Shown in pieces: positions 18,475 to 61,818 of a DNA stretch of 64,000 bases. The stretch comes from Chloranthus sessilifolius (lineage: Eukaryota > Streptophyta > Magnoliopsida > Chloranthales > Chloranthaceae): NCBI GenBank assembly GCA_021018995.1, contig CM037595.1:77377159-77441158 (forward strand), given 5' to 3'. Made by a program: the position numbers and the translations under genes. The notes under the pieces are model-generated. The model did not search any database. It was given only the letters and a program-made list of their open reading frames with translations, and had not been told where the DNA came from. The stretch's first letter is position 1. Each line of letters opens with the position of its first letter.

Positions 18475-18705
18475 GACCTCGCTCGAGCGGTCACTTGACC
18501 TCGCGCGAGCGGTCTCTTGACCCCGCTCGAGCGGTCAAACGAGATCGCTCGAGGGGTTAAATCGAGCTTTTAAATTTTTGATGTGGACCCTCGCTCGAGC
18601 GAGCCTCCCTTTAGTTTCAGGGACCGCTCGAGCGAGCCCAGAGTCTTTTTTTTCTATATTCATCCTCGCTCGAGCGAGCCTCTTTAGACCGCTCGAGCGA
18701 GAAAC
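18475..18705. repeat. SoloC cluster of CGCTCGAGCG palindromes
   Basis: About eight copies of CTCGCTCGAGCGAG or close variants (GACCGCTCGAGCG), spaced about 20-50 bp. This is the SoloC counterpart of the palindrome clusters in TekA, TekB and Ath1. Confidence 0.9.
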
Positions 18706-19222
18706 ACCGATTTTTGTCCATGATCAGATCGAGATCATGCCTCCATCCTTCATTTTACCTTAATCTTATATAAAGCAACATACAGCCAACATCCTTCCTA
18801 CTATTTAAAACATTCCTAAGCATCTATATGTTTTTAACGTACCTCTGACGATGAAACACGCACAGGTTCGATTTAAGATTTGTAAACCAACTAGGCTATC
18901 CGGTCTCCCTGGTCCGTCCTCCCGTCATTACCTCTAATCTCCCTTGCCGAGCCAAGTTTCTGCAACCCTAGTTCTCCCAGGCTCCTTTCTTCCCTTTCTT
19001 TTTCTCTATAGTCTCCTCCTCTCTATTTAGGTTAGAATAGTTTCACGTAAGGACTCCTCTTCTCTCTTCTTCACTTTTATATTTATCACAATTGGGATAT
19101 ACTAGTGTGTTTCCCATGTACACACTTTAAGTATTTGGGTGTTTTGGTCCCTTTGTGAAACGCATATACCTATGTGCAACAAAGTGTGCCATGCACAGAC
19201 CTCAAAAATCTGGGTTGTGACA

Positions 19223-19525
19223 TGTATTATCTACCCCGATCAGATCTAATGACTTTTATTCTTTTATTTAATTAATTTTCTACTAATGCTTTATAAACTT
19301 TAAAATTTTCAAACGCCTCATTTTTAGTGTTTAATAAATAAATATGATCATATTTTAAAAAATTATCTATAAAAGTAATAAAATATCTTTTCCCTCCTTT
19401 AGTAGGAATATTTTTTAAATCACAGATATCACTGTGTATTATATCTAATAAACATAAATTTCTTATTACACTAGGAAATGACTTTCTAATAATCTTAGTC
19501 TTAGAACATACACTACAAGCATTAC
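19223..19525 (-). pseudogene. Cop3 integrase, N-terminal part
   Basis: Between SoloC and TekA, the minus-strand translation reads SKTKIIRKSFPSVIRN, then LLDIIHSDICDLKNIPTKGG and KRYFITFIDNFLKYDHIYLL, the start of the copia integrase core. It places the two nested insertions on either side of the catalytic core. Confidence 0.85.
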
Positions 19526-20207
19526 CGTAACGACCCTAAAATTTAGAACATGAACCTGACTGTTTCGATCTACGTGCCTGGCACAAAAATCGAGGCTGAC
19601 TTAAAACTTTAGAATTAATATTAGTTAAGAAAAAGTTGCACGGTGATCAGATGAGTTCACATGTGCGTTTTCGTTTAAGTCCGAGTTGTGTAGAAGGGTA
19701 ATGTGATACGTTGCACCGTAGCAACCGTGTTCGTGCTCCACAACGGAACGTGAACTAGGGGCAAAGCAAAAAATATCTGTTTAGTAACTTATAAGAGAGG
19801 AAAGGGAGACTTAGGGAGAGATCCCCTTCTTCTTCTTCTTCCTTCCCTTGCCCTAGTTGCTCCAGTAGCTAAAGGATCTGTAGCTAGGTGGGTTTTCAAG
19901 AGAGTTTTTGGAGAGAAAACAGGGTCAGCAAGAGTGAGATGATGAGTTTCCTAAGCTAGGGTAGGTAGAGTTCAGTGAGATGAGCTTAGGTATGGTCTAA
20001 GCTGTGTGTGTGTGAAGTCTCTGCGTGCTGAACCGGAGCTAAAGGGTTGCTCATCGGACTTGGATCGGTGATGAACTCCGAGAACTAGATCCGAAACCCT
20101 CATCCGTATCGATTTGCCGAAACCCTGAGAAGGCCCAAACAAAGGTGAGTCTGTGTGTTTAAATAGGGGCAAATGAGAAGCCCAAGTATGTGCATTGATG
20201 TTGTGAT

Positions 20208-20227
20208 AATGGTTCTTGAGAACCATT
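20208..20227. repeat. TekA LTR inverted repeat AATGGTTCT-TG-AGAACCATT
   Basis: Perfect 9 bp arms around TG, just upstream of the palindrome array. The same AATGGTTC / GAACCATT arms recur in the hairpin at 21985-22025 and in a near palindrome inside the extra gene near 28100-28117. Confidence 0.8.
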
Positions 20228-20290
20228 AATGAAAAATAGAAAAAATAGGGTTGGAGATGAACTCCATTAATGACAGAGTTTCTATCATTA

Positions 20291-20946
20291 TTGATCGATC
20301 AATGAAGGTATTGATCGATCAATGATAAGTGGTGATCGATCAATGAAAGCCATTGATCGATCAATCTGTATAAAATAGAAGGGGAACAGAAGCCCCTAAA
20401 TTCTGGAAGTTCAATGCCCGAAGGGCATTGATCAATCAATTTGGGCATTGATCGATCAATCCTGGGCATTGATCGATCAACAAGAGAGTGATCGATCAAT
20501 GACAGTTGGTGATCGATCAACAAAGACATTGATCGATCACTGTAGGGTGTTGATCGATCAATGAGGGCATTGATCGATCAATCTGTATAGATAGTTAATG
20601 TGGACAGAAGGTGGGAATTTTTGAAAAAGGGTTAGGGATCGATTAATGAGGGCATTGATCGATCAACAGGAGGCATTGATCAATCAACCCCAGTGGTGAT
20701 TGATCAATTTAAGCTGTGTTAAAAGTGAATAGAAGGGAGGTTATTGATCGATCAATGAGTGTATTGATCGATCCATGATGATAGGTGATCGATCAATAAG
20801 GTGTATTGATCGATCAATTGGCTTGTTGTAGAAAGAGAGCTAAGAGGGTGGTGATCGATCAATGAGAGGTATTGATCGATCAACAAGGGGTATTGATCGA
20901 TCAACAAGGGGTATTGATCGATCAATAAGAGTGGTGATCGATCAAT
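20291..20946. repeat. TekA 5' LTR array of TTGATCGATCAA palindromes
   Basis: About 25 sites of TGATCGATCA, roughly 20 exact, falling in runs with start-to-start distances of mostly 20-22 bp. Linkers vary in sequence but stay similar in length. The array is matched in the 3' LTR, with fewer copies. Confidence 0.97.
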
Positions 20947-21699
20947 CACCCCTGTTTTGTTCTGTTTTGGTTTTATGGATTAAACACCACCGGACATTGT
21001 GCCGATTAACTTTCGGACATCCCTGACACTTAAAGTACTATGTTTATGGTCTAGGATCAAACCCTAACACATTGAAAAGGCTTTGGATTTGCTTGAAAGA
21101 TAAATTGATCTGAGGTAGGAGAAAATCAACTTAAACTATTTTTTTTTTAGTATGATTCCATGTTTATTTCATATCTATGCCCTGATTTCTGTTTTTACCA
21201 AGCATGTATGCATATCGTGATTTCTGCTATTTTGATTTTTGTTTCTTGATTCGTATTCAGAAACTTGCTTCTGATTTCTGCCATCTGATCTGTGAGGTGT
21301 ATATGTATATAATTTGATGATTTAAACCAGATGATCCCCACCGACCCGGCGGTATATCCGATGCATGGCACACTTGTGCACCTGCTTTCAATCCTCGGCA
21401 CAATTGCACTCCATAGATGAGGCATTGTTGCACTTTCAAAATTATTCATGTGAACGACGATTGGTTGGGGTTTCCTATCGGACATTCCTGTTTACTCCGT
21501 GCTATATAGTCACGGGAGTTTCTTAAGTTAAATACACACAATTTAAGTTCTTTGATAATATACTTGCATAACATCTGATTTCTTGCATAAAACTTCAGCT
21601 CTTAGTTAATTCGTCATGATTATACGTTCCTGATTTGAATTCTGTTATGAGATAGCATGATCTGCATATTCATTGCGTTTAGTTGAAATTCTTCTATTG

Positions 21700-21862
21700 A
21701 GCTATGATGTAGCTCACCCTGCTTTCTAAATCAATTTTAGGTTCTGAGGCTGTAGCTCCCGGCACAGAGAGCGACCCAGACTACCAGCCTGATCCAGAGG
21801 CTGAGGCCGAGGACGAGGAGACGTATTATTCGGGACGAGTTCTATCCGTAGCCTGGGTACTT
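21700..21862 (+). other. TekA copy of the conserved LTR block
   Basis: GAGCTATGATGTAGCTCACCCT is followed by a pyrimidine- and A-rich tract ending in TTTTAG, then an open acidic stretch rich in Glu, Asp and Pro. It matches the position and character of the block in TekB and SoloC on their sense strand. The tract ending in TTTTAG looks like a splice acceptor. Function unknown. Confidence 0.5.
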
Positions 21863-21984
21863 GAGTCCGATGTCCTGTATTTTGACCTTTTGGATTATTG
21901 TGTGCCTGGTGGCCACTTTTGTATATATTTTTAGTAGAATTACTTATTGTAGTATTTATGCATTCTATTCGGAACCACTATCGG

Positions 21985-22025
21985 GAACCATTGTTTGGGT
22001 GATGGATGTCCATCACCAATGGTTC
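21985..22025 (+). repeat. TekA LTR hairpin
   Basis: GAACCATT, a 5-base bulge, GGTGATGGA, TG, TCCATCACC, AATGGTTC: a two-part stem with 9 bp and 8 bp arms. It is intact in both LTRs (31435-31475 in the other). Confidence 0.85.
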
Positions 22026-22263
22026 TTCTTGGTTCCTTTTTGAGAATGTGTATTCTTTTGGTTTATATAGAATTAATTGTTTTATAATTATTGTTCTTTA
22101 TGTTAAATGCATTCTTAGATGACTGACTCGATCTACCACTGCTGGATTGTGTCTGCTTGGCTTCCGCTTTACAAGCAGACACTTATACTTTATCCCGGGG
22201 ATCATCCAGAGTATGATCCCGATGGCACGGATTTCTGGGTGCAGAATTCTGGGCTGTCACAGT

Positions 22264-22276
22264 TGGTATCAGAGCC
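22264..22276 (+). other. TekA primer binding site (iMet)
   Basis: TGGTATCAGAGCC two bases after the LTR is the standard initiator-Met tRNA complement used by most plant Ty3/gypsy elements. Confidence 0.95.
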
Positions 22277-22435
22277 TAGACGTTAGGTTGAACTCAGGTT
22301 CAGGTTGGATTGTTTTCACAATCTATGTACTGATCAATGTTGTTGTTTTCACAATGACAGACCAGTATGGGCCCTAAGTTCAGATGAGGGCACAGTGGAG
22401 GTAGAACAGGTCAGAGAGAGATTCCTCTAAGGGAT

Positions 22436-23690
22436 GTGCCCGAGGTCATAGGCACGTTGAGGGGTTTGGAATTCCTCTCACATGCAAATGCAGTTCTGGT
22501 GGGACCAAGAGGAGGTAGAAGAAGAAATGAAGAAAGGATGGAGCAGGTGTTGGAAGCATTAGCTACCAACGTCGCTCAACAGACAACTGCTTTGGCTCAA
22601 CAGGCAGCTAGACCACCCCATCAGCCTAGTGGATTTGCGGAATTTAGGAGAATGAGACCTCCTAACTTCTCGAGTCAAACGGATCCCATAGAGGCAGAAG
22701 GATGGATAGAAGAGATGGAAAAGCTCTTTGAAGTATTACAGTGTAGTGAGGTGGAGAAAGTGCGTTGGGCCACTTTTAAGTTGGATGGTGACGCCGGACC
22801 TCGGTGGAAGTCGGTGTCACAAAATAGACAGAGGGAGTTTCCTCACACTCCTTGGACATGGGAGGAGTTTACAGAGGTGTTTTATCACAAATACTTTCCG
22901 AAAATTGTGAGGCATCAGTGGGAAGTGAAAGTTATAGAGTTGAAGCAAGGCGCCATGTCGGTAAGGGACTATGGAGCGGAGTTTGATAGATTGGCTAGGT
23001 TTGCACCCCAGCATGTAGCCACGGATTTGATGAGAGCAAGGAAATTCCAACTTGGCCTGAGACAAAATTTGCAGAAAGACGTCGCCATGTGGGAAATGGA
23101 GACTTATGAGGGAGTCATGGCCAAGGCTCTCATAGCTGAGGAGGAGAATCAGAAACAATTCTCTTGGAGGGACAAGCAGGCGAGAGAGAGACCATTCCAA
23201 GGGCAATCTCAGGACACAGAGCAGAACAAGAGGGCTAGATTTTCCAGACCTCCGAGATACCCTACGCACTCTCGACCGGCGATTTCTTCAGGTCCGAGTT
23301 CATATCAGAGAGCAGCAGCGCCTACATCTTCCAGATCATTTCGACCAGCTGGATCTTCTGGTAGCAGCCTCAGTGACTCAGGGACCTTCAAGAGTCTCGT
23401 CCTTCACTCCGGCCGCGATATGTGCAAAGTGTGGGAAACCACACAAGACAGAGGACTGCAGGAGAGAGGCAGGGGCATGCTTCAGGTGTGGCAAGATGGG
23501 CCACTTGGTTAGGAACTACCCTGAGGAGAGCAAGGAGCGGTCAGGATCGGTATCTACACAAAGATCATCTCGACCAGTGGTTCACGGTCGAGCTTATGCC
23601 GTCACCGCGACCGATGCTCTGACATCGAATGACGTCATTCAAGGTATGATTAGAATTCAAGAGATATGGTGTTGTTTAATATGATGAACT
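22436..23690 (+). pseudogene. TekA gag region
   Basis: The capsid core is FAEFRRMRPPNFSSQTDP, then AEGWIEEMEKLFEVL and the PWTWEEFTEVFYHKYFP block, typical of Tekay-type chromovirus gag (Retrotrans_gag). A zinc-binding tail follows near 23410-23520, with two Cys clusters (CAKCGKPHKTEDC and CFRCGKMGH). The region before it is Ser/Arg/Pro-rich. It would assemble particles and bind RNA. Confidence 0.93.
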
Positions 23691-24164: not shown

Positions 24165-25015
24165 AGTTTATGGACCTGATGAATCGTGTGTTTAAACCAC
24201 ACTTGGACAAGTCAGTGGTTGTTTTTGTAGACGACATCCTTGTCTATTCTAAGACAAAGGAGGAACATGAAGAGCATCTACATGTAGTCTTGTGGACCCT
24301 CAGAGAACACAAATTATACGCAAAGCTCAGTAAGTGTGAGTTTTGGTTGAACCAAGTGAGTTTCTTGGGCCATATTGTCTTTGCTAAGGGTATAACCGTG
24401 GATCCGACAAAGATTGAGGCCGTTGTGAACTGGGAACAACCTAAAATAGTGACAGAGGTCCGTAGTTTTCTTGGTTTGGCAGGATACTACAGGCGATTCG
24501 TAGAAGGTTTCTCTAAGCTATCAAGTCCGCTTACTCAGCTCACTAAGAAAAATGCTAAGTTTGATTGGACCGAGCAATGCAAGAAAAGTTTCCAGGAATT
24601 GAAGACGCGTCTGACTACAGCACCAGTGCTAGCTATACCTTCTGGCAGAGGAGGCTTGGCTATCTAGAGTGACGCATCGTATAGTGGTTTGGGTTGTGTT
24701 CTCAACCAACATAAGAAGGTTATCGCATATGGCTCTAGACAACTTAAGGAACATGAGAGAAACTACCCGACTCATGATCTGGAATTAGCGGCGGTGATCT
24801 TTGCTTTGAAGATTTGGAGGCACTACTTATACGGCGAAACGTTCGATATCTACACCGACCACAAAAGCCTTAAATATTTGTTTACCCAAAAGGATTTGAA
24901 TATGCGACAGCGCAGATGGATGGAGTTCTTGAAAGACTACGATTTTTCCATCCAGTATCACCCTGGGAAGGCCAATGTTGTGGCAGATGCTTTGAGCAGA
25001 AAGTCTTCAGCTCAG
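24165..25015 (+). pseudogene. TekA reverse transcriptase and RNase H region
   Basis: RT signature [22 protein letters not shown] near 24205-24270, then [15 protein letters not shown] (thumb) near 24460-24505. RNase H follows at about 24660-25015: [18 protein letters not shown], then [17 protein letters not shown] and [16 protein letters not shown]. The chain ends with the classic [13 protein letters not shown]. Part of a broken element. Confidence 0.92.
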
Positions 25016-26150
25016 TTGACACATCTTATCACCAGAGTACAAAGGTGGCATCTACTTGAGGACCTGGCCTTATGTGATACGCTGATTGATGTCAGAGGTT
25101 CAGGGACACTGATGGCTACCATTGTGATACGTCCCACATTGTTTAACAATGTACGTAAGCTGCAGATGATTGACGATGAACTTATGGCAATACGAAGGGA
25201 TGTGATCAACGGAATCAAACCTGATTTTACCATCAAGGATGATGGCACTTTGCTATTCCGAGATCGGATGTGCATACCGGATACAAAGGACCTAAAAGAC
25301 ACAATTTTGGAGGAAGCGCATAAGTCTACATATGCTATACATCCTGGGAGTACCAAGATGTACCAAGATCTCAAGCGAAGTTTTTGGTGGAGAGGATTAA
25401 AGAAGGATGTGGCAGATTATGTTTCTCGGTGTTTGGTCTGCCAGCAGGTGAAAGTGGACCATCGGAATCCAGCGGGTTTGTTGCAACCATTGCCAGTGTC
25501 AGAGTGGAAATGGGAAGCCATTTCTATGGACTTTATTCTAGGATTACCGAGCACATTGAGAAAGAACAATGCCATTTGGGTTATTGTAGACAGAGTGACG
25601 AAATTTGCACATTTTCTACCGTATCGGACTACATTCATAGCCAATAAACTAGCTGAGTTGTATATGAAGGAAATAGTTCGATTACATGACATACCGGTCA
25701 GCATCGTGTGTGATAGAGATCCGCTATATACGTCGCAGTTTGGCGACGATTCCAAGAAGGCATGGGTACTAAATTGGAGTTCAACTCAGCGTTTCATCCT
25801 CAGACAGATGAGAAAACTGAGAGAGTGAACCAGATCATAGAGGATATGTTGCGTGCATGTATCTTGGACTTTCATAGTTTATGGGATCAACACATGCCTC
25901 TGATCGAGTTCGCTTACAATAACAGTTATCAGTCAAGTATTGGGATGGCGCCTTATGAAGCCTTATATGGACGTCGATACAGATCTCCACTGAATTGGGA
26001 AGAAGTCGGCGAGAAGCTTGTCTTAGGACCAGAGATCGTGGACAGTACCACCGAGACGGTTAGGGTGATTCACGAAAGATTGAGGATGGCCCAAAGCCGT
26101 CAAAAGAGCTATACGGATCTTCATCGGACGCAAGTGGAGTTTCAGGTATA
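25015..26150 (+). pseudogene. TekA integrase zinc-binding and catalytic region
   Basis: HHCC domain near 25320-25455 ([17 protein letters not shown]... [11 protein letters not shown]). The catalytic core follows: [25 protein letters not shown] and [11 protein letters not shown], then [19 protein letters not shown] and LIEFAYNNSYQSSIGMAPYE. Standard Ty3/gypsy integrase in a broken element. Confidence 0.92.
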
Positions 26151-26844: not shown

Positions 26845-27262
26845 ACATTGATCGATCAACACAAGTATTGATCGATCAATTTCATGAGTGATCTATCAAC
26901 AAAGAGGGGTGATCGATCAATAACAAGTGAAGGATTTCACTCAAATGTTAGGCTGGTGATCGATCAATAGGAGGATTGATCGATCAATAATGGTTCAGGT
27001 GATCGATCAACAAGGGTTAGTGATCGATCAAATTTGCATTGGAAAGTAATCATTGATCGATCAACATAGGTAGTGATCGATCAATAAGGGTGTTAGTGAT
27101 CGATCAACAGAGGATGGTGATCGATCAATGCATCGATTTAGGGCTTAAAGATGCTGCATTGATCGATCAACAAAAGCATTGATCGATAAATCCTGGGGTT
27201 TAAGTTAAAGATTGGGGATTTCGAACGGTCATTTGCACGAAGCTCCTATAGTGATCGATCAA
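26845..27262. repeat. TekA internal array of TTGATCGATCAA palindromes
   Basis: About 15 sites, 13 exact, between the end of pol and the extra gene. It uses the same motif as the LTR arrays but the linkers are not copies of the LTR linkers, so it is a separate array and not LTR sequence. Its last site (27251) lies about 175 bp before the extra gene's start codon. Confidence 0.95.
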
Positions 27263-27426: not shown

Positions 27427-28840
27427 ATGGGACCTCGCACGAAGAATGCTTCGCATAAGGTACCCACGTCTCGGGCTCGTACACCGGTACCGCCTTCCGT
27501 TTCCGTTCCCCCGCCACCCGTGCCACCCATGGCACCGGTTTCGACCCTTGTTCCACCCGTTCCGCTCCCCGTCGAGCGTGAAGTCCCCAAAACGTGGTGG
27601 GCTTCCAAAACCTTCTTACCCGAATACGTTTTTGCTTCCTCGCTCTACGAGGACCAACCCGAAATGGCTTGGGCCAAGGGTTATATCCAAAAGCTCGGGT
27701 TAAAGCCCTTGCTTGAACCATTCCACGACCATTATTGCCCACGCCTATTGAGGCTTTTCTTCCAAAACCTACGATGGGGTGATAGTCGCCATTGACTTGT
27801 CACGACCATCGATGGTTTTGAGTACAAATTTAACCACTTCCATGTCGCGGCGGCACTTCAATGCCCGTCCGCTTATATCGAGACATGTGGCCTTGATGCC
27901 CCGTACATCAAGGAAGTCTCATACGCCGATGTGGTCACTAAGATGACCCAAGGCCAACACGGGAGGGGCCAATCCATATCTAGGCCCCAATTACCCGATC
28001 GCTTGTGGATGCTTGATACGTATATCAAGTGTGCACTAAACCCCTTTCTGCACAAGTCCTCGCGGACTGGAGTAGTGCAACAGGCACTATTCTCGACCTA
28101 TGAGAACCATTGGTTCTCTATGGCAGATTTGGTCATTGAGGGCATCATCAATGCAATGACCTTATGTTTGAAAAGGTGAAGTCGGGGGTTAAGAAGCAAA
28201 TCCCCTATGCCCGCCTCATCACCAAGCTAGTAGAGCAGTATGCCGCTCTACGCGAGGCCTACACCTTGGCTCCTCACGAGCCACGCTTGGTCGACAACAC
28301 CAAGGTCTTTCAACTGAAGGACTGGACCAAGAGTTACAACCTGTTAGTGCGACGACTTCCTGAGGAGGAGGAGGGCGCCGCCGAGCCCATTCCGCCTACT
28401 GTCGCCGAGGGTTCGATCCCTGTCGAGCCTACATCAGGAGAGGGGGAGGCCCCACGTGACCCACCACCTCCACTTGAGGTGTCTGCCCGACCGGCCCCCG
28501 TTACACCCCACCGACCGATTCGTCACACCACAGCCCATCCCCCACCATTGTCCTCCGACGACGTCGCCGCGATGCTTCCGGAGCTGGTGGAGGGCAACCG
28601 CCGTATCCATGAGAGGCTGGACGACATGGAGGCATTCCAGCGATAGATGCATCGTCGTCTGGATTACCACGAGGGGATGCATGAGCTGGTCATGCAGCAT
28701 CTGTATGCCACGACGTCCACGCCGATGATCGCTCACGCTCATCAGCACGTTGTGGACCAGCGCGACTACCGCACACTGCCACCTCGTCCCAGCAGACCTA
28801 CGCCTGACGAGGCCGGTCCATCCGATGTCCCCACAGGTAT
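27427..28840 (+). pseudogene. TekA extra gene: plant transposon protein-like, unknown function
   Basis: Starts MGPRTKNASHK with a basic and Pro-rich N-terminus. A globular part follows (WWASKTFLPEYVF, CPRLLRLFFQNL, LWMLDTYIKCALNPFLH, QQALFSTYENHWFSMADLVI, IPYARLITKLVEQY). The tail is Pro/Glu-rich with a short helix (NRRIHERLDDMEAFQ). The pattern (reading-head W, LLRLFF.NL, then a late RA/QALF..I..I) resembles the Pfam putative plant transposon protein family (Transposase_32), from memory. TekB has a clear homologue in the same place. It is sense-oriented, between chromodomain and 3' LTR. Broken copy; function not known. Confidence 0.7.
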
Positions 28841-29058: not shown

Positions 29059-31711
29059 TGTAACGACCCTAAAATTTAGAACACGAACCTGACTATTTCG
29101 ATCTACATGCCTGGCATGGAAATCGAGGCTGACTTAAAACTTTAGAATTAATATTAGTTAAGAAAAAGTTGCACGGTGATCAGATGAGTTCACATGTGCA
29201 TTTTCGTTTAAGTCCGAGTTGTGTAGAAGGGCAATGTGACACGTTGCGCCGTAGCAACCATGTTCGTGCTCCACAACGAAACGTGAACTAGGGGCAAAGC
29301 AAAAAATATCTGTTTAGTAACTTACAAGAGAAGAAAGGGAGACTTAGGGAGAGATCCCCTTCTTCTTCTTCTTCCTTCCCTTGCCCTAGTTGCTCCAGTA
29401 GCTAAAGGATCTGTAGCTAGGTGGGTTTTCAAGAGGGTTTTTGGAGAGAAAACAGGGTTAGCAAGAGTGAGATGATGAGTATCCTAAGCTAGGGTAGGTA
29501 GAGTTCAGTGAGATGAGCTTAGGTATGGTCTAAGCTGTGTGTGTGAAGTCTCTGCGTGCTGAACCAGAGCTAAAGGGTTGCTCATCGGACTCGGATCGGT
29601 GATGAACTCCGAGAACTAGATTCGAAACCCTCATTCGTATCGATTTGTCAAAACCCTTAGAAGGCCCAAACAAAGGTGAGTCTGTGTGTTTAAATAGGGG
29701 CAAATGAGAAGCCCAAGTATGTGCATTGATGTTGTGATAATGGTTGTTGAGAACCATTAATGAAAAATAGGAAAAATAGGGTTGGAGATGAACTCCATTA
29801 ATGACAGAGTTCTGTCATTATTGATCGATCAATGAAGGTATTGATCGATCAATGATAAGTGGTGATCGATCAATGAAAGCCATTGATCGATCAATCTGTA
29901 TAAAACAGAAGGGGAACAGAAGCCCCTAAATTCTGGAAGTTCAATGCTCGAAGGGCATTGATCGATCAATTTGGGCATTGATCGATCAACAAGAGAGTGA
30001 TCGATCAATGAAAGTTGGTGATCAATCAACAAAGGCATTGATTGATCACTGTAGGGTGTTGATCGATCAATGAGGGCATTGATCGATCAATCTGTATAGA
30101 TAGTTAATGTGAACAGAAGGTGGGAATTTTTGAAAAAGGGTTAGGGATCGATCAATGAGGGCATTGATCGATCAACAGGAGGCATTGATCGATCAACCCA
30201 AGTGGTGATCGATCAATTTAAGCTATGTTAAAAGTGAATAGAAGAGAGGTTATTGATCGATCAATGATGATAGGTGATCGATCAATAAGGTGTATTGATC
30301 GATCAATTGGCTTGTTGCAGAAAGAGAGCTAAGAGGGTGGTGATCGATCAATGAGAGGTATTGATCGATCAACAAGGGGTATTGATCGATCAATAAGAGT
30401 GGTGATCGATCAATCACTCCTGTTTTGTTCTGTTTTGGTTTTATGGATTAAACACCACCGGACATTGTACCGGTTAACTTTCGGACATCCCTGACACTTA
30501 AAGTACTATGTTTATAGTCTAGGATCAAACCCTGACACATTGAAAAGGCTTTGGATTTGCTTGGAAGATAAATTGATCTGAGGTAGGAGAAAATCAACTT
30601 AAACTATTTTTTTTTAGTATGATTCCTTGTTTATTTCATATCTATGCCCTGATTTCTGTTTTTACCAAGCATGTATGCATATCATGATTTCTGCTATTTT
30701 GATTTCTATTTCTTGATTCGTATTCTGAAACTTGCTTCTGATTTCTGCCATTTGATCTGTGAGGTATATATGTATGTAATTTGATGATTTAAACCAGATG
30801 ATCCCCACCGACCCGGCGGCATATCCGATGCCTGGGACACTTGTGCACCTGCTTTCAATCCTCAGCACAATTGCACTCCATAGATGAGGCATTGTTGCAC
30901 TTTCAAAATTGTTCATGTGAACGACGATTGGTTGGGGTTTCCTATCGGACATTCCTGTTTACTTCGTGCTATATGGTCACGGGAGTTTCTTAAGTTAAAT
31001 ATACACAATTTAAGTTCTTTGATAATATACTTGCATAACATCTGATTTCTTGCATAAAACTTCAGCTCTTAGTTAATTCGTCATGATTATACATTCCTGA
31101 TTTGAATTCTGTTATGAGATAGCATGATCTGCATATTCATTGCGTTTAGTTGAAATTCTTCTATTGAGCTATAATGTAGCTCACCCTGCTTTCTAAATCA
31201 ATTTTAGGTTACGAAAGTAGCTCCTGGCACGAGAGCGACCTGACTACCGGCTGATCTGAGGTCGAGGCCGAGGACGAGGAGAGTAGACATTGACGAGAGT
31301 TCTATTGTACTTGAGTCCGATGTCCTGTATTTTGACCTTTTGGATTATTGTGTGCCTGGTGGCCACTTTTGTATATATTTTTAGTAGAATTACTTATTGT
31401 AGTATTTATGCATTCTATTCGGAACCACTATTAGGAACCATTGTTTGGGTGATGGATGTCCATCACCAATGGTTCTTCTTGGTTCCTTTTTGAGAATGCG
31501 TATTCTTTTGGTTTATATAGAATTAATTGTTTTATAATTATTATTCTTTATGTTAAATGCATTCTTAGATGACTGACTCGATCTACCACTGCTGGATTGT
31601 GTCTGCTTGGCTTCCGCTTTACGAGCAGACACTTATACTTTATCCCGAGGATCATCCAGAGTATGATCCTGATGGCACGGATTTCTGGGTGCAGAATTCC
31701 GGGTTGTCACA
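29059..31711 (+). repeat. TekA 3' LTR
   Basis: 2653 bp starting TGTAACGACCC and ending GGGTTGTCACA. It carries about 20 TTGATCGATCAA sites at 29820-30415, the 41 bp hairpin at 31435-31475 and the conserved block near 31160-31310. Over most of its length it differs from the 5' LTR at a few percent of sites. Confidence 0.95.
29820..30415. repeat. TekA 3' LTR palindrome array
   Basis: About 20 sites of TGATCGATCA with the same 20-22 bp rhythm as the 5' LTR array. It lacks some of the units found in the 5' copy, so the array changes length. Confidence 0.95.
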
Positions 31712-50328: not shown

Positions 50329-50685
50329 GATTAATCGATTCCCATTCGATTAATCGAAATTCTCTGCTCTATCCAGTCGATTCTCAATTCGAGTAATCGA
50401 ATTTCCAAAGTCGATTAATCGATCCCAAATCGATTAATCAAAATTATAAATCGATTAATCGAACTCTCATTTCGATTAGTCAATTTCTTTAAGCTAAATT
50501 CTTTCCTCCACTGGAGTCCACTGTAGGTTCCCAGTCGATTAATCGAATTTAGTTTCGATTAATCGAAATCCAAAGTCGATTAATCGAAACTAAATTCGAT
50601 TAATCGAGATCGGGGTCCTTTGACTTTTCAACTTCTTGGCCAATTTCGATTAATCAAAACCCAATTTTGATTAATCGAAATTACC
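50329..50685. repeat. TekB left LTR cluster of TCGATTAATCGA palindromes
   Basis: About 14 sites, most of the form TCGATTAATCGA or one base off, in short runs with about 18-25 bp spacing. The partner LTR has a longer cluster. Confidence 0.95.
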
Positions 50686-51256
50686 AGATTCAGCCCCCTT
50701 TTGGCTGTTCTTCCCAATCTCTTCTCTTACTTTTTTCCTCCATCTTTCTAAGGATAAAGGCTTAGAATCTAACCACAATCTAACCTTTTAATCTATGCAT
50801 TTAAACTACAAAAATTTACCTTCAATCAATCTCAAATTGATTTCAAATCGAGTAGTTGGAAAGGCTAGGGTTCCAGCTTTAGCTTGAACGGATTCTCCGC
50901 GTCGACTCGGTCTCTTTAATGTTAGAATCCCCCTTCCAATCACTCACAATAACTCTTGTTCAACCTCTTTACTCCTCTCTCTCTCTTCTTTACTCCTCTC
51001 TCAACAACCAAAATACAGATTTTAGGGTTATTAAACCCTTTTATCTCTTTCCTCACTTGTGTGTTGAGCACATGCACCACGATAGGTGTATGCGACTTCA
51101 CATTCACATCACACACCATGCAGTCAGTCAAACTATCACATCTCATCCATTCATCACACTCTATGCTAACCATTGAACTCCTAATTGGTCAAACCTGTGA
51201 CCAATCGGGCACGAATCCCGAGGTCACTGTTTAATGTGATTTTTTGGGATATTACA

Positions 51257-51541: not shown

Positions 51542-53140
51542 TCAGGCAGTCCCCTCGCCAGGCTGGTCGGGTGCTGGAGCAGGCTGCTCCATCTGAGCTG
51601 ACGGTGCTACGGGGGCTGGTGGGTCTGCTGGAGCTGGCTGTGACTGCGGTGGTGGAGACTGTGCTGGCTGGGTAGTCGGAGGTAGCGGCGGCTGTGGCTG
51701 CGGCGTCTCTGTCGGCGGAGCGGAGGTAGATGTGGAAGGAGTCGCGTCAGTAGTGGCGGTGGTGGGATGGAAGACGGGACCTCTGTGGAAGGCGGTCCGT
51801 CCCGCAGTCCACTCCTCCTCCTGAGCGAGGTAGCGGTGGTAGTCCATCGGGTAGATGTAGCGGAGGGTGTGGAACATCAAGAATTCCATCCTCCGGTTCA
51901 TTCGCTCGTTGTTGGCCTCCATGCGAGCCAACACCTCCTCAATGGTAGGACCGGATGGAGCCGCGCGCCGGCGGTATGATGAGGTGGGTGTAGCGGGCGC
52001 GGAGTGAGCTGGCGGTGTCGGTGAGGCCGTAGTATGAGAGGTGGCCCTCTCCACTGAAGGCTGGGCTAGGTGTGCCCCACCCACGGGTGGGTCCTGCTGT
52101 GGTGGTGGGGGTGGCGGTGGCACCTGCTGGCCGCGCCAGCTGGGCGGAGCGGACCCGAGCCAGAGGGTCCGCTTGAGTAGGTTGTAGCTACGGGTCCATG
52201 AAGACTTGGAGAATGTCTTCACGCAATCCGTAACTCTCACCTCGTGAGGCGAGATGGTATAGTCGGGAGTGTTGGAGTAGCACTCAAATATGCTCGATAT
52301 GAGCCGTGCGTACGGCATCTTCTCCTTGGGCCGGAGGTTGCCCTTCATTAGCTTCCCCTTGATGTACCTCATCCCTTTTAGGATGACCATGGTGGCGTCG
52401 AATCACCGGCCACAAAAGGCCGCGTAGAGTGCGTGTTGCACTCGGTCCATGCGCTCGGTATCGTGGCGCATCGGGTAAAGGTTACACTTGATCACCGAAT
52501 TAAGCATCCACATGTAGTGGGGAAGGTCAACCCTCTTGATGGAGGATCCCGACCCCTTTTTTCCGTTGGTCATGCGGGTCATGACCTCCTTAAATCGAGG
52601 GTCCTCCTCAAAGGGTGGGAATAGGGTGGTCTCAGGTGTGAAATCGAGGTAGCACTCAAGCACCTCGTGTACGTGGCGACGTGTGATCGTGTAGTCTCGA
52701 CCCTCGATGGTGGTCTTGATCATGTCGTCCGTCGGGCCGTCCACAAGCCCTTGGTAAAACAATCTCACCAATCTAGGATAATAGGAACCCCAGATTGGTT
52801 TGAGAAGGTTGCCGAGACCGGCATTGTTAAGGTAATTATGAGCCCATTAGGTCTCGCCCAGTACATTGGGATTTGTGAAAAGGGTAGGGTCAATGAGGTA
52901 CTCGACCTCAAAGGTCTTCGCGGCCCACCACTCATTAGGTTGTACCACGTTAGTGGGTGGTGGTGGCATGGGTGTAGACTCGCGCGAAGATGCACTCGTC
53001 GAACCGGAGGTGGTCTCCAATGCCGACGGTGATGGAGTCCTCACCGGCGATGGGGTAGGTGGTGGTGGTGCAGCTTTCTTACGCCGGACCAGTAGCTTGG
53101 AGGTTGCCTTCTTCGAAGACAAACGGGTTTTGGGTGGCAT
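51542..53140 (-). pseudogene. TekB extra gene: plant transposon protein-like, unknown function
   Basis: Starts MPPKTRLSSKKATSKLLVRR, a basic stretch followed by Pro/Ser-rich sequence. The globular part has EWWAAKTFEVEYL, then LVRLFYQGLVDGPTDD, DYTITRRHVHEVLECYLDF, LPHYMWMLNSVIKCNLYPM, and MPYARLISSIFECYS. The tail is very rich in Pro, Ala and Gln, with IEEVLARMEANNERMNRRME, a likely helix. Homologous block by block to the TekA gene (WW..KTF, LLRLFF/LVRLFY, WML.S.IKC, PYARLI). Sense-oriented with the element. Resembles the putative plant transposon protein family. Broken copy. Confidence 0.72.
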
Positions 53141-53154
53141 TTTGGCAAAATTTC

Positions 53155-53380
53155 TGGTAAAAACTAGGGTTTTCGACTTGAAATTGAAGAAATACGCGAG
53201 CCTAGGGTTTACCTTAGGTTTCAGATGCGAATGTGTGCGATTGCGGATGCAAAATCGGCAGAAATCCCAAACCCTAGATCACTCGGTCGGTTGGAGAAGA
53301 AGGAGAAGAAGAAACGCCCAAATCAACAAAAGTCCAAATGTTTTCAGATGGAAAATAAAATCCCCAATTTTATATATATA
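53155..53380 (-). promoter_or_regulatory. Candidate internal promoter and leader for the TekB extra gene
   Basis: Minus-strand TATATATATAAAA (53368-53380) lies about 30 bp upstream of a likely start near 53340. The leader down to the start codon at 53140 is pyrimidine-rich (TTCTTCTTCTCCTTCTTCTC) and holds three telo-box words (CTAGGGTTT or AAACCCTAG near 53165, 53203 and 53269). The palindrome array begins directly upstream. This layout is that of a plant gene promoter and not of LTR-driven transcription. Confidence 0.5.
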
Positions 53381-53387: not shown

Positions 53388-54095
53388 GCTCGATTAATCA
53401 AAATCCAAAGTCGATTAATAGAGATTCAAAACTAGGTTAAGCCGCGCAAAATCGATTAATCAATCCCCAAAATCGATTAGTCGAAAGTCAAAATCGATTA
53501 ATCGAACTAATTTCGATTAATCGAAATCGTATCCGTTTAAAAATTTAAGTTTTAGAGCTCATTGGCGCGAGCCAGTCGATTAATCGAAATCCATTTCGAT
53601 TAATCGAAATTTTAAAATCGATTAATCGAAATTTACTTCGATTAATCGAAATCGTGCAGTCCCTTCCAAAATTTTCAGGATTCTTAAGTTATTCGATTAG
53701 TCGAACTATGGTTCGATTAATCGAAATCTCAAATCGATTAATCGAATTCTACTTCGATTAATCGAAATCGTTTCTCTGGCTTAGAATTTTCATAGTTCCC
53801 TTAAGTAAATCGATCAATCGAAACCTCCTCGATTAATCGAAATTTCATTAATTCATTCCTAATTTCTTCTAACATTCCCAGTATGTTCGATTAATCGAAC
53901 ATGCAATTCGATTAATCGAAAACCTAAATCGATTAATCGAAACCAAAATCGATTAATCAGAAATTTCATTTTGTATCTGTTCTAACTCTCATCCCAATTT
54001 CCAGTCACTGGCACATGCCAGTCGACTAATCGAACAAAATCGATTAATCAAAATTCCAAATCGATTAATCGATTTGAAATTTGATTAATCGGTTT
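53388..54095. repeat. TekB internal array of TCGATTAATCGA palindromes
   Basis: About 24 sites, many exact, often in pairs of opposite-flank form (TCGATTAATCGAAAT and ATTTCGATTAATCGA). Lies between the integrase end and the candidate promoter of the extra gene. Confidence 0.95.
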
Positions 54096-54356: not shown

Positions 54357-55860
54357 TCATTCCCAAGTAGCCTCTTCCTTTGGATGATTGTTCCACCGGA
54401 CAAGCACTAAGGGAATCACTTTAGTGCGCAGTACCTGTTCCTTTCGATCCAAGATTTCCACTGGTTCCTCTATCATGCTCATGTCCTCACACATCTCCAT
54501 AGGTTGACTTCCTAACACATGAGATGGATCGTTCACATACTTTCTGAGCATCGATATGTGGAAAATGTTATGTACCCGATTGAACAGCGGTGGTAAGCCA
54601 ATGCGATACGCAACTTCACCTACGCGTCCCAAAATTTCAAATGGTCTCACATAACGGGGACTTAGCTTCCCTCTCTTGCCAAACCTCATTACACCTTTCA
54701 TAGGCGACACTTTCACAAACACGTGTTCACCCACTTTATAGTCGACACTAGTCCGCTTGATGTCGGCGTAACTTTTCTGTCTACTCTGTGCTGACTTCAG
54801 CCTTTCTCTGATTATTTGAACGATAGTGGCGTTGTCTTCTAGTAGTTTTGGCCCTAAAATAAATTTCTCACCTGTTTCTTCCCAATTGAGTGGTGATTTG
54901 TATCGTCGTCCATACAGAGCTTCATACGGTGCCATGCCAATGCTCGTTTGGAAACTGTTGTTGTATGCGAATTCGATCAATGGTAGATACTCATCCCAGT
55001 ATCCTTGCATATCTAGCATGCACGCTCTGAGCATGTCTTCTATCACTTGGTTCACTCGCTCTGTCTGCCCATCAGTTTGAGGATGGAAAGCTGAACTAAA
55101 ATCTAGTCGTGTTCCCATTCTTTCTTGAAATTTCTTCCAAAACTTGGACGTATATAGTGGATCACGATCTGAAACTATGCTACTTGGAATCCCGTGTAAC
55201 CTTACGATCTCCTTCATATATAAGTCTGCCAGTCTTTCTGCCGTATACATAGTATTGTATGGCAAAAAGTGCGCTGATTTGGTCAATCGATCTACGACGA
55301 CCCAAATGGCATTGTGTCTCTTGACAGTACGTGGCAATCCAACAATAAAATCCATCGAGATCGATTTCCACTTCCATTCTGGTATTGGTAAAGGCTATAA
55401 TAGTCCAGCAGGATGTCTATGATCAATCTTCACTTGCTGACAAGTCAAACACCGTGACACGTATTCGGCCACGTCTTGCTTCAGACCTCTCCACCAGTAG
55501 TTCTTTTTCAAGTCCTGGTACATTTTGGTGCTACCAGGGTGGATAGCATAATTTGACTTATGGGCTTCATCAAGAATGGTTCGTCTTAGATCGGCATTGT
55601 CCGGAATGCATAGACGACCCTTAAATAATAAAGAACCATCTTCTTTAACTGAGAAGTCCTACCTGATGCCTTCACTCACGTCTTGATGAATCTTTGTTAA
55701 TGTTGGGTCTTTCATCTGTAGATCGTGGATATGCTCAAATATCACTGGCCTTATTGATATGTTAGCCAAAAAGGATCCGGTAGCTTTTGACTCAATGTTC
55801 GCATCGTAAAGTGCCAGGTCTTCCAATAATTTCCATCAGTGCATACCCAAAATCAAACAA
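54357..55860 (-). pseudogene. TekB integrase with chromodomain
   Basis: Zinc-binding part near 55430-55580, then the core from 55355: MDFIVGLPRTVKRHNAIWVV, then [42 protein letters not shown] and LIEFAYNNSFQTSIGMAPYE. GPY/F module KRGKLSPRYVRPFEIL and a chromodomain at the end: EEPVEILDRKEQVLRTKVIP, LVLVRWNNHPKEEATWE. Clear homologue of the TekA integrase. Confidence 0.93.
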
Positions 55861-57982: not shown

Positions 57983-59239
57983 TTATCCGTCCTGGCAATC
58001 CTTGATCAAGTGGCCCACCTTGCCACATCGGAAACAACCCCTAGTCCCCGCTCTACAATCCACCGTCCCATGAGGCTTGCCACACTTTGCGCAAGTCTCC
58101 CGAGGTGTGAAAGAAACAGTATGAGAACCCTGTGTGATAGTGGCACCAGTAGACATGGCAGGGCTCTCATAACGTAAAGGTCTCCCCGATGCAAGTAACG
58201 GAAACCTCTGTTGGTGTTGTTGTTGCGCCGGCCTTCCAAAACCTCCTTGAAACTGTGGTCTCTGAGCTTGGGTCACGAACTTCAGCTTTTTGTTCACTGG
58301 TTCGTAGTTCCCCGTTCGTCCTTGATCATTTCCTCCTCTCTGTTGCTCTCTATGTCTATATCTATTCGTATTTTCTTCTTCTACAACCAATGCCTTGCTC
58401 ATGACCTCTTCATAGGTCCTCAGCTGAAATGGAGCTACGCCTCCCCTAAATTCAGGCTTCAAGCCTTGTTGAAACCTCTTTGACTTCATCACGTCGGTAG
58501 CGACGTAATCCAGAGCAAAACGGGCAAGTCGTAGAAACTCCACCCCATATTCTCTCACTGTCATTCTCCCTTGCACTAACTGTAGAAATTGTATCTCAAG
58601 CTGATTCCTCACCACTTCCGAAAAATATTGTTTGTTGAACTCCTCAACAAACTCCTCCCACGTCCAAGGCAACTCCGGGGTCTCCTGAGCCCTAGTCCGT
58701 ATCACGGACTTCCACCAAGGCCCAGCCTCCCCATCCAACATATAAGCTGCCCATCTCACACTCTCATCTTCCGTGCATGTCAGCACGCTAAAGACTTTCT
58801 CCATCTCCATAAGCCAATTCTCAGCGGCCATTGTGTCTGCCTGCCCAGAAAATGAAGGAGGTCTCATCCTCCTAAACTCTGTAAAGGATGAGGGCACAGG
58901 CAGCGCAGGTCCTACAGGTGGTGTAGGTGGCTGCTGTTCTCTTGCTGCATGAGCTGCAAAGGATGCGGCTTGTTGTGCCATGGCAGCTGCCATAGTCTCC
59001 ATAGTATGCATCATCCTTTGTCGCTCTTCTCTATCTTCTTATCTCTCTCTAACTCTCTCCTGTTCCCTTTGATCTCGATCCTCTTCATCATGCTGTCTAC
59101 TACTACTGCCCCCTGAGGCCTCAGTACCTCCTAAAGGCACTCTATTAGTAGGAGAGATGTAATCATCTCCACTACGTAGACTCCTCTGTTGGCCTCCCCT
59201 TGGTCGGCCTCTTCCTCTAGATGACATTTGCGGCTGCAT
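57983..59239 (-). pseudogene. TekB gag
   Basis: Basic N-terminus (MSSRGRGRPRGGQQRS), coiled Ala/Gln-rich stretch, then the gag core (FTEFRRMRPPSFSGQADT, ENWLMEMEKVFSVL, PWTWEEFVEEFNKQYFS). Two Cys clusters at the C-terminus (CAKCGKPHGTVDC, CFRCGKVGHLIKDC). Homologous to TekA gag over its whole length. Confidence 0.94.
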
Positions 59240-59318
59240 TTGAAACTAAAGTTTCGTTAGCAGAAGCCCCTATGTTCTGACCAAAAAGAATGATTGTCAG
59301 AATTGCTAAAAGAAATGG

Positions 59319-59330
59319 CTTTGATACCAA
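59319..59330 (-). other. TekB primer binding site (iMet)
   Basis: Minus-strand TTGGTATCAAAGCC next to the right LTR matches the initiator-Met tRNA complement with one difference from the usual TGGTATCAGAGCC. Confidence 0.88.
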
Positions 59331-59331
59331 C

Positions 59332-61818
59332 TATGACAGCCCGGATTTTGACACCTCGAAACCCGTGCCATCAGCACGATCATCTTAACCGTGCCCCTTA
59401 GCTATGCATGGAACATTGGTATATCAAGCAATGAATCAAATTGAAATAGTAAATGAAACTGCGGTATTAAATCACTATATAAGCATTTCTCAAAATACAG
59501 TTCTACCCTCATGCCTCTACATGAGTGGAGAACCGATCCGAACCATCGATGGTAGCTAATCATCACAGATGGTTCGCCCCAAAAGAATTATCCCAAAACC
59601 CAGTATACACATTGTTTAGTCAAAACAAGGCTTGGCATACCAAGCCATACAAAATCACTCTGAGGCCCTCAAAGCTGCACAACGGAGTCCTCTAGAAGAA
59701 GTCCTCAGGAGGTGGCTCCAACTCGTCTCCGGCCGCAAGGTCCGACTCATCGGGGTCAGCGTCTCCTGAAGCCTCGGCAGCTGCTAGTAGTGGACCTGCG
59801 ACGTATAGTCTATAGGGTGAGCTACATCCTAGCTCAATAGGGAACAAAACACAATTGAACATATAAATTATTACTCACATATATTCCATGATATGCCATG
59901 CATGATGTGTCTATGCAGTACTGATGAAAATAGTTAAAAAGCATCACATTTTACTGGTAGTTTACTCATGTCTTTTACTTATCCATGAATGATTCTGAAA
60001 AGGCCTAAAGCAAAACTTAAACTTTCAACTTAAGTAATCCCCGAGAAATATAGCATCGAGCCCCGATCAGATACCCATCATCGTCATCTATATAGAAAAT
60101 TTTAACGTATTCCCTGGGAATACAATTAGTACCCAAGCCCCTTTCCCCTGGAGATTGGTGGCTAGGTTTCACTAGTCTCAATCAACACTGTGCTTATCGT
60201 CGGATAAGCCTCAGACCGCCTACGGTTTCGTAGTCAGTATGATCACGGATATCCTGCCGTGTCAGTCGTGGATATCCCGCCACGTCGATGGGGTACCCTA
60301 TCAAACCTCAAATAACAAAAATATCAGTGCCTTACATATAGTTATTCACCGTGTAAGTGTGCTATCTTATATTAGTTAGGCCCTATCAAACATGATTCAA
60401 TCTTGGATGCATCCCTGGGATGTATCCATTCACTTGCATCACACCTGATGCTCTTATCTCTTTACTTCCTCATCCCCTGGGGATGGCTCATTATGATTAC
60501 TTTTATTGATGTCACACACACACACTTTTTCACAACTCTTTAAGCAATAAAACATTTGAATTTAAATCTATATCACTACATACATGCTCTTGCAAAATAA
60601 AGTATATGTTCAAGGAGTTCCCTACCTCAAGTCTTCGTTTGATCAATGCATCAAGGTCCCACGTGGCTCCTTGTGCACAAGCTCATACGTACCACCTATG
60701 ATACCACATAACATGTGAAACACATCATTAAAGATGTAATAAAGGAGGTCCAAGACCCCCCAAGAATCTTAAAGTCAAACTCAGAAGTCAACATAAACTG
60801 GCCCAGTTGATTAATCGAACTCCAAAATCGATTAATCGAATCTGATTCGATTAATCGATTTCCAAAATCGATTAATCAATTCTCAAATCGATTAATCGAG
60901 ATTCCCATTCGATTAATCGAATCCCAATTCGATTAATCAAAATTCTCTGCTCTATCCAGTCGATTCTCAATTCGAGTAATCGAATTTCCAAAGTCGATTA
61001 ATCGATCCCAAATCGATTAATCGAACTCTCATTTCGATTAGTCGATTTCTTCAAGCTAAATTCTTTCCTCCACTGGAGTCCACTGTAGGTTCCCAGTCGA
61101 TTAATCGATTCTCAATTCGATTAATCGAAATCCAAAGTCGATTAATCGAAACTAAATTCGATTAATCGAGATCGAGGTCCTCTGAATTTTCAACTTCTTG
61201 GCCAATTTTGATTAATCGAAACCCAATTTTGATTAATCGAAATTGCCAGATTCAGCCCCCTTTTGGCTGTTCTTCCCAATCTCTTCTCTTACTTTTTTCC
61301 TCCATCTTTCTAAGGATAAAGGCTTAGAATCTAACCACAATCTAACCTTTTAATCTATGCATTTAAACTACAAAAATTTACCTTCAATCAATCTCAAATT
61401 GATTTCAAATCGAGTGGTTGGAAAGGCTAGGGTTCCAGCTTTAGCTTGAACGGATTCTCCCCGTCGACTCGGTCTCTTTAATGCTAGAATCTCCCTTCCA
61501 ATCACTCACAATAACTCTTGTTCAACCTCTTTACTCCTCTCTCTCTCTTCTTTACTCCTCTCTCAACAACCAAAATACAGATTTTAGGGTTATTAAACCC
61601 TTTTATCTCTTTCCTCACTTGTGTGTTGAGCACATGCACCGCGATAGGTGTATGCGACTTCACATTCACATCACACACCACGCAGTCAGTCAAACTATCA
61701 CATCTCATCCATTCATCACACTCTATGCTAACCATTGAACTCCTAATTGGTCAAACCTGTGACCAATCGGGCACGGATCCTGAGGTCATTGTTTAACGTG
61801 ATTTTTTGGGATATTACA
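59332..61818 (-). repeat. TekB right (5') LTR
   Basis: 2487 bp copy of 48853-51256. Carries a longer TCGATTAATCGA cluster at 60804-61245 (about 17 sites), the coding-like block at 59680-59850 and the CCC-T-GGG palindromes. A TATA-like GATAAAAGGG on the minus strand near 61600 may be the element promoter; the cluster would lie downstream, in the leader. Confidence 0.95.
60804..61245. repeat. TekB right LTR cluster of TCGATTAATCGA palindromes
   Basis: About 17 sites. Has units absent from the left LTR cluster, although the surrounding LTR sequence is nearly identical, so the cluster changes copy number quickly. Confidence 0.95.

Follow-up and report, generated by a model that had tools for sequence, protein, structure and literature searches.

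Family-specific palindrome arrays in LTR retrotransposons of Chloranthus sessilifolius and the candidate role of the elements' own extra genes

Palindromic repeats were described in 2010 by Bousios and colleagues in 13 Sireviruses, where they lie in the long terminal repeats (LTRs) upstream of the TATA box and again before the env gene; they are absent from classic Ty1/copia elements, and regulation by nuclear factors was suggested for them (PMC2829016; for this and all other reports cited, statements refer to excerpts of the source). The architecture of such arrays was thereby already known in Sireviruses. Here, a stretch of 64,000 nt from Chloranthus sessilifolius (CM037595.1, positions 77,377,159 to 77,441,158), hereafter the window, is considered, which sits on contig 12 of a 2.17 Gb genome (G000) and holds members of four LTR-element families, TekA, TekB, SoloC and Ath1, each with clusters of a different palindrome. 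In the families that bear an extra gene (aORF) downstream of pol, the sequence data point to the product of this gene as the candidate binder of the arrays, which is not the case in Ath1.

The likeness to the RM boxes of Sireviruses consists in a high-copy palindrome in the LTRs and before an env-like gene, with element-specific variants (PMC2829016). In this genome, a high-copy palindrome is found in the LTRs and before the extra gene of TekA, TekB and one SoloC copy (L064), and in the LTRs and before gag of Ath1. Even single cores recur, as Usier GTCGGACGTCCGAC includes the core CGGACGTCCG of a Ty1/copia family described below and Tnd-1 ACAATCGATTGT includes the Ath1 core (PMC2829016). While RM was termed Sirevirus-specific in a survey of Ty1/copia elements only (PMC2829016), Ty3/gypsy elements are concerned here as well: only the CGGACGTCCG family is Ty1/copia, and TekA, TekB, Ath1 and SoloC are not. 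The CGG-CCG signature is present in CGGACGTCCG and absent from the motifs of these four families, as it is from that of Tnd-1 (PMC2829016). The excerpts of the Sirevirus account also differ in giving neither a helical spacing nor the env-like gene as proposed binder (PMC2829016), and searches of open-licence literature turned up no report of such arrays in Ty3/gypsy elements, of helical spacing or of the extra gene as binder. New relative to this prior art are the occurrence in Ty3/gypsy elements, the unit spacing and the aORF family that the elements share.

A second comparison is offered by the VANDAL elements of Arabidopsis and their VANC proteins, an element-encoded protein family with family-specific motifs clustered in non-coding DNA, in which related proteins have different targets (Hosaka 2017; PMC5735166). 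VANDALs differ in being DNA transposons with a non-palindromic 9-mer, YAGTATTAY, for which binding and methylation loss have been demonstrated (PMC5735166). A family-specific motif clustered in non-coding DNA is likewise found here, and by analogy VANC is the closest working model. TnpA of maize Spm (cited in PMC10398659) is also encoded by its element, binds repeated copies of a 12-bp motif close to the promoter and activates the methylated promoter; Spm differs in being a CACTA DNA transposon with a non-palindromic motif, and its protein is unrelated as far as known.

Conserved extra open reading frames (ORFs) with predicted nuclear signals, to which the aORFs can be likened, are described for sunflower Tekay and Athila, Retand (TRP28) and Grande (gene23) (PMC11728184, PMC7264820), and the role of extra or env-like genes in plant LTR retrotransposons is an open question (PMC7264820). 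The 3' aORF of sunflower Athila shows partial Transposase_32 similarity and a predicted nuclear signal (PMC11728184), TRP28 has predicted DNA binding and lies near tandem repeats (PMC11963269), and gene23 has its own promoter. In the excerpts, none of these accounts links the extra ORF to palindromic arrays (PMC11728184, PMC7264820, PMC11963269), and the sunflower Tekay aORF lies 5' of gag-pol (PMC11728184), unlike the aORFs here, which lie 3' of pol.

Exact counts of the four motifs in the window are 31 for TTGATCGATCAA (TekA), 32 for TCGATTAATCGA (TekB), 6 for CGCTCGAGCG (SoloC) and 8 for TCAATCGATTGA (Ath1), which bears out an initial annotation of this DNA that had described four families with clusters of different palindromes, each motif being repeated about 4 to 25 times per cluster. 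When up to 3 mismatches are allowed, the clusters, in order of position, hold 26/15/23 units in TekA, 13/24/17 in TekB, 8 in SoloC and 4/6/4 in Ath1, in agreement with that range. The TekA arrays lie in the 5' LTR (20291..20945; 13 exact copies, 24 cores with at most 1 mismatch), in the interval between pol and the aORF (26848..27262; 5 exact, 15 with at most 1 mismatch) and in the 3' LTR (29821..30413; 13 exact), and those of TekB occupy the same slots (5' LTR, 60807..61240, 10 exact and 17 with at most 3 mismatches; internal, 53390..54092, 14 and 24; 3' LTR, 50327..50678, 8 and 13). In Ath1, arrays are found in the 5' LTR (46823-46922; 2 exact), in the 3' LTR (36890-36989; 2 exact) and upstream of gag (45274..45437; 4 exact, 6 with at most 3 mismatches). 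SoloC is an LTR fragment in the window (array at 18480..18699; 6 exact, 8 with at most 1 mismatch), with further genome copies that are 90-97% identical. The slots given in the initial annotation, i.e., both LTRs and the interval between pol and the extra gene in TekA and TekB, both LTRs and the region before gag in Ath1, and the LTR in SoloC, are all confirmed; for SoloC, the family is documented by two copies elsewhere that retain both LTRs.

The most frequent palindromic 12-mer of the window occurs 32 times, against a maximum of 2 across 60 dinucleotide shuffles (the (TA)n tract being excluded). A chance origin was rejected, both these shuffles and those of the aORF loci reported below lying far below the observed counts. 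Specificity was tabulated for seven motif cores across seven families plus the 26.4 kb of remaining window. The TekA, SoloC and Ath1 cores occur 0 times outside their own family, and the TekB core CGATTAATCG 0 times outside TekB, except as the core of another aORF group, while copies in the own set number 52 for TekA, 32 for TekB, 31 for SoloC, 9 for Ath1 and 242 for the Ty1/copia family (hereafter copia), whose core is likewise missing from the other sets. Within the window, none of the four motifs recurs in the three other elements or in the remaining 26.4 kb. Genome-wide, TekA unit pairs separated by 5-30 bp occur 33,268 times, against 0 for the reversed pattern. Family specificity, as it had been claimed, holds within the window and does not hold strictly beyond it, since CGATTAATCG is common to TekB and a distant aORF group; the Ath1 core CAATCGATTG occurs in the Sirevirus Tnd-1 too (PMC2829016, Table 3).

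In TekA and TekB, the step from one unit (at most 3 mismatches) to the next is typically 19-23 bp within blocks, which are split by longer gaps; in the blocks of the TekA 5' LTR array it is 19-21 bp. Ath1 and SoloC units follow each other at 22-23 or 42-46 bp (22, 42 and 44 bp before the Ath1 gag; 22-23, 33, 42 and 46 bp in the SoloC LTR). Among exact neighbours no more than 70 bp apart, the share at 19-23 bp is 41/53 in TekA, 18/23 in TekB, 62/109 in copia, 19/45 in SoloC and 4/10 in Ath1, many of the remaining gaps being about twice as long, and steps of 21-23 bp are found in the CGATTAATCG group. Two turns of B-DNA measure about 21 bp. With a spacing of about two helical turns, many adjacent sites would face the same side of the double helix.

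The motif is retained while the linkers drift. Over six sets, the ten motif positions hold 1.68-1.93 bits each against 0.47-0.85 in the flanks (1.29 against 0.28 in the CTCGCGAG set), and identity from unit to unit is 0.87-0.97 in the motif and 0.37-0.48 in the linker, with a bias in favour of the motif as units were chosen by core similarity (at most 3 mismatches in 10) and with the CTCGCGAG set left aside in this pairwise comparison. The view that adjacent linkers are no duplicates of each other holds with a qualification, as linker identity exceeds the chance level of 0.25-0.30. Neutral tandem-repeat expansion would account for this residual identity and for indels of unit size between the LTRs of one copy (in TekA of 20, 21 and 21 bp, in TekB of 21 and 103 bp), from which it follows that arrays grow and shrink by whole units. 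It would also agree with the lack of a consistent shortage of substitutions in the arrays between LTRs of a copy (array against outside, 2.5%/4.2% in TekA, 4.8%/2.6% in TekB and 5.0%/7.1% in Ath1), a comparison limited by the fact that selection after insertion is not expected. However, it explains neither the difference between motif and linker in all six sets, nor a repeated word that is palindromic in 7/7 families, nor the recurrence of the slots, and we regard it as very improbable. As the whole story, neutral tandem duplication was rejected on the alignment of units and the keeping of the motif relative to the linkers, and is close to refuted. Each of the 7/7 motif cores contains CpG, and among units with one mismatch, the change is CpG to TpG or CpA in 14/25 in TekA, 13/21 in TekB, 35/99 in copia, 7/14 in SoloC and 4/11 in Ath1, which would fit the decay of methylated copies.

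Regarding the nature of the arrays, these sequence features make it very likely that they are groups of DNA-binding sites within the regulatory DNA of the elements. The proposal of the initial annotation that they are binding-site arrays selected for specificity is the preferred one and is partly supported, in so far as they are private within the window, palindromic, conserved and often phased, and has to be qualified in that specificity is not absolute and that Sireviruses provide a precedent.

Behind their internal arrays, TekA and TekB carry homologous, broken aORFs that resemble Transposase_32. That of TekB (51545..53140, minus strand) consists of the open pieces 52850-53140, 52406-52846 and 51545-52402, the middle one of which matches PF20167 (Transposase_32) with E 3.1e-7 and 30.9 bits, below the 45-bit cut-off. 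That of TekA (27427..28643, plus strand; open pieces 27427-27792, 27796-28176 and 28167-28643) has no Pfam match of its own and is Transposase_32-like via its homology to TekB, sharing 37% identity with the TekB piece over the aligned part and reaching 82.3 bits with a profile that lacks TekA and includes TekB. Among 41 listed genome matches of SoloC, two spans have LTR pairs, L064 and L065. L064 harbors CGCTCGAGCG arrays in both LTRs and in the interval between pol and aORF, together with an aORF whose two open pieces reach 35.9 and 32.0 bits with a profile made without SoloC; L065 has the LTR arrays and an aORF (38.7 and 29.0 bits with the same kind of profile). The prediction that SoloC copies with two LTRs carry an aORF was therefore borne out in 2/2 cases, and an internal array was present in 1/2.

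A second prediction, that arrays would come to light from the protein family alone, was examined by searching the genome with PF20167, no motif being used; in the main, both predictions held. Out of 13,856 first-look candidates, 150 were scored, all of which (150/150) lie above the 45-bit cut-off, and 54 of them, the best 30 plus 24 chosen for varied profile ends, were examined (PF20167 bits: 67.1 for the copia aORF, 55.8 for L043 and 55.9 for L044). At least 3 copies of one palindromic 8-mer inside 600 bp were found at 44/54 aORF loci, 34 of the 44 with a gap of 19-23 bp, compared with 1/270 shuffles, 0/13 control stretches and 0/6 gag-pol stretches. The words in these loci are GGACGTCC (36), GATTAATC (5), CTCGCGAG (2) and CCACGTGG (1). 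When one mismatch is allowed in the ten-base core, at least 3 cores of the own group lie upstream of the domain at 49/54 loci (41/43, 5/5 and 3/6 by group), a count that has no shuffle control. Three further groups with arrays upstream of the aORF are thereby added: the Ty1/copia family with the word GGACGTCC and the core CGGACGTCCG, assigned by the reverse transcriptase of one copy (L059; RVT_2, 8.9e-63), the CGATTAATCG group, and a Ty3/gypsy group with CTCGCGAG. Upstream of the latter lies a pol of Ty3/gypsy type (L067), which by eye looks like that of Athila; the ORF upstream in the CGATTAATCG group (L066) has no Pfam match and by eye looks like an Athila gag. In a tree built from 32 aORF domains, with labels taken from the 8-mer count, which has long branches and near-copies, 8 changes of motif class are needed against a shuffled mean of 15.7, and 8 or fewer were obtained in 0/200 shuffles.

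Three of these loci deserve separate mention. In L053/L066 (G000:C7:31390110-31395800), an aORF and an array follow a gag-like ORF and pol is not seen in the 3.5 kb inspected, possibly a non-autonomous gag-aORF element. The arrays of L045, L053 and L066 mix CGATTAATCG with CGATGCATCG, which have an identical half-site, CGAT, and a different central pair; this mixture is possibly a specificity in transition. At L041 (G000:C10:12498700-12501100), three copies of CCACGTGG accompany an aORF, together with several occurrences of GACGTC and GCATGC; the copia-group motif may have diverged here.

Where an aORF is present, its product may, with a slight balance of probability, be taken as the binder. 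From the arrays with their spacing, their specificity and their conservation relative to the linkers, and from the homology of the aORFs and the conserved position of an array before them, we infer a system in which the aORF protein would bind the array of its own family as a dimer and control both the LTR and its own gene; on sequence evidence, this explanation as a whole has a little better than an even chance. Binding in the LTR would give control of the genomic promoter, and binding ahead of the aORF, which would have a promoter of its own, would give self-control. The likeliest direction of the effect would be activation or anti-silencing. With activation or anti-silencing, a copy that escapes silencing would switch on its own family and not the others. 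As a broader and more tentative proposal, to which we give somewhat less than an even chance, the sense (env-like) extra genes of the Ty1/copia, Athila-like and chromovirus-like elements of this genome would form one family of self-targeting dimeric DNA-binding regulators, with a private palindromic code per family laid out as a phased array in the LTR and before the gene, a retrotransposon counterpart of VANC and TnpA.

The array before the extra gene suggests that the protein of this largely unexplained gene recognises and controls its own family, and its role becomes directly testable because the target sequence to be expected for each protein can be read from the arrays. If this is true, copy-rich plant elements would carry largely private DNA-recognition systems by which a family regulates itself without waking others, and the pairs of family and motif would be natural data on changes of specificity in such a fold.

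Alternatively, host transcription factors could bind the palindromes, each family having adopted the sites of a different factor and the aORF having an unrelated role. Some cores resemble sites of plant factors, GACGTC that of bZIP and ATTA that of homeodomain proteins. Host-factor binding has been proposed in print for Sireviruses, for which mainly stress-factor sites were recovered from PLACE, and the Ath1 arrays, found without an aORF, have the core CAATCGATTG in common with Tnd-1, which is listed as env-less (PMC2829016). The motif lies before env in 9/9 env-bearing and 0/4 env-less elements of the 13 motif-bearing Sireviruses (PMC2829016, Table 3), and the host-factor explanation leaves this lack of internal copies in env-less elements unexplained, as it does the arrays ahead of the aORF in six families here and the mutual avoidance of motifs among the families of one window. 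We consider it unlikely.

Several observations weigh against the aORF protein as binder of its own array. Six env-bearing Sireviruses are without the motif (PMC2829016), and for the sunflower Tekay aORF a role in RNA silencing was favoured by fold resemblance (PMC11728184). In the SoloC copy L065, no internal array was found. Ten of the 54 aORF loci (L005, L017, L028, L036, L040, L048, L049, L051, L052 and L058) lack an array by the 8-mer count, the 20-bp spacing rule was not found in the CTCGCGAG group, and the copia loci are near-copies that weigh less than their count. TekB and the aORF group with the same core CGATTAATCG share only 24-30% identity, and within the copia group one motif is shared by proteins with identities as low as 50%; such sharing among distant aORF proteins indicates that the coupling between protein and motif is loose. 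A structure model of the 147-residue TekB piece, built with one homologue, reached a mean pLDDT of 43, which is too poor to be used and thus yields no DNA-binding fold for the aORF. The search of a large protein collection with one copia aORF gave 2841 candidates and 0 at E 0.001, and PDB sequences gave nothing. DUF1985 is presumably the VANC domain. No kinship between it and the aORF groups was found with five DUF1985 proteins (probability 0.1-0.4%), on very shallow profiles with which even copia against the other aORF groups reached only 24-67%. DUF1985 has 4,046 first-look candidates in the genome, 150/150 of those scored being above the cut-off, and no palindrome arrays were seen at five loci examined.

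Ath1 is a real exception, with arrays in two slots and no aORF found: none was seen between pol and the 3' LTR of the window copy, and two more copies, inspected in part, retain the motif ahead of gag and likewise show no aORF. The one profile match, a weak one (E 1e-4), falls within gag and was dismissed as spurious. Ath1 would either borrow a regulator or use a host factor. Within one Ath1 copy (L072, G000:C14:25128900-25133900), a CGATTAATCG array with 15 exact cores at 2456-2925 is probably a nested element carrying this motif. The Ath1 LTR array with its linkers (36887-36992 in the window, about 106 bp) forms an imperfect inverted repeat, and the 3' LTR as query matches genome copies, including its own element, on both strands.

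This inverted repeat bears on a further explanation, in which the arrays are retained for hairpins in RNA or DNA, serving for instance packaging or reverse transcription, or are mere targets of small RNAs. Over their first 300 nt, four array stretches fold far better than their shuffled versions (z -6.9 to -18.7; 40 mononucleotide shuffles per stretch), and small RNAs pile up on palindrome clusters of maize Sireviruses (PMC10760457). Palindromes alone, however, already give strong folding, and hairpins would need pairing between units and no helical spacing, whereas most units are perfect dyads of a single word, often with 19-23 bp from one to the next; this explanation appears improbable.

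The promoter of its own proposed for the aORF can be considered in the light of TATA boxes near the arrays. In a listing with words picked after looking and distances taken from the last core, a TATA word before the aORF starts 10 bp past it in TekB (TATATATATAAAA, 53368..53380, minus strand), 9 bp in SoloC L064 and 10 bp in copia L009, at 35 and 108 bp in two CTCGCGAG loci and at 41-42 bp (TATTTAAATGG) in two CGATTAATCG loci; L009 was the only one of 5 copia loci inspected with such a word near the array. In both Ath1 LTRs, the word (TATAAAAAGG in the 5' LTR) begins 29 bp past the last core, and in the TekA 5' LTR, TATAAAATAG lies inside the gap following unit 4, 5 bp past that unit. Under a uniform rule, TATAWA no more than 60 bp past the last core was found in 14/49 aORF loci (12/41 copia, 0/5 CGATTAATCG, 2/3 CTCGCGAG), against 10/49 in the 60 bp ahead of the first core, and no TATA was found close downstream of the TekA internal array or of the TekB and SoloC LTR arrays. 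By these counts, a TATA near the arrays is weak evidence for the proposed regulation, whose odds they lower slightly, and a TATA at a fixed place holds for some copies only and not as a general rule. In copia, the position is 11-13 bp from the last core in 11/12 loci, and a word of the TTTTAAAA type lies no more than 30 bp past it in 15/41. Donor sites resembling AG/GTAA were seen by eye between the TATA and the aORF start (53141-53360 in the window; L064), which suggests a spliced leader on the aORF mRNA.

With the aORF protein still as binder, the arrays could instead serve repression, as copy-number control of the phage-repressor kind. Autoregulated palindromic operators before a gene suit repression as much as activation, and the TATA 9-13 bp past the last core in some copies could be read in this sense. 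Plant elements, on the other hand, are already silenced by the host, and an array as large as the internal one of TekB, with 24 sites in 0.7 kb, looks more like an activator cluster. Repression by the aORF protein is hardly probable, and activation by it is retained as the preferred effect.

Three of the elements, TekA (plus strand), Ath1 and TekB (both minus), are bounded by self-BLAST, and gag and pol parts were detected in all three by Pfam. From such matches, TekA, TekB, Ath1 and the SoloC copies are presumably of the Ty3/gypsy type, and the lineage names Tekay, Athila and Sirevirus are provisional and rest partly on the initial annotation. The LTRs of TekA (19527..22271 and 29060..31721) are 93.5% identical, and tggtatcagagcc, which follows the 5' LTR, is a putative primer binding site of the initiator-Met type; an open part of gag (22388..23509; PF03732, 5.8e-17) is followed by the RNase H and integrase zinc-binding part of pol (24668..25825; PF17917, 2.2e-32; PF17921, 1.2e-19). 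In TekB, the 5' LTR (59334..61818) matches the 3' LTR (48855..51256) with 93-95% identity, gag with a zinc knuckle lies at 57986..59038 (PF03732, 1.9e-18), and the integrase end at 54360..55394 has an SH3_Tf2-1 match (PF24626, 1.6e-23) and a weak chromodomain match (PF00385, E 0.011) below the cut-off. A chromodomain score, also below the cut-off, was obtained for SoloC L065 (E 6.2e-4), and none was seen in those TekA parts that were scanned. Ath1 has its 5' LTR at 46329..47318, gag at 44114..45016 (PF03732, 2.7e-18), integrase at 39857..40918 (PF00665, 1.4e-15) and its 3' LTR, delimited by self-BLAST, at 36409..37385. Finally, positions 13288-14047 and 33227-33966 of the window form a further repeat pair with 86% identity.

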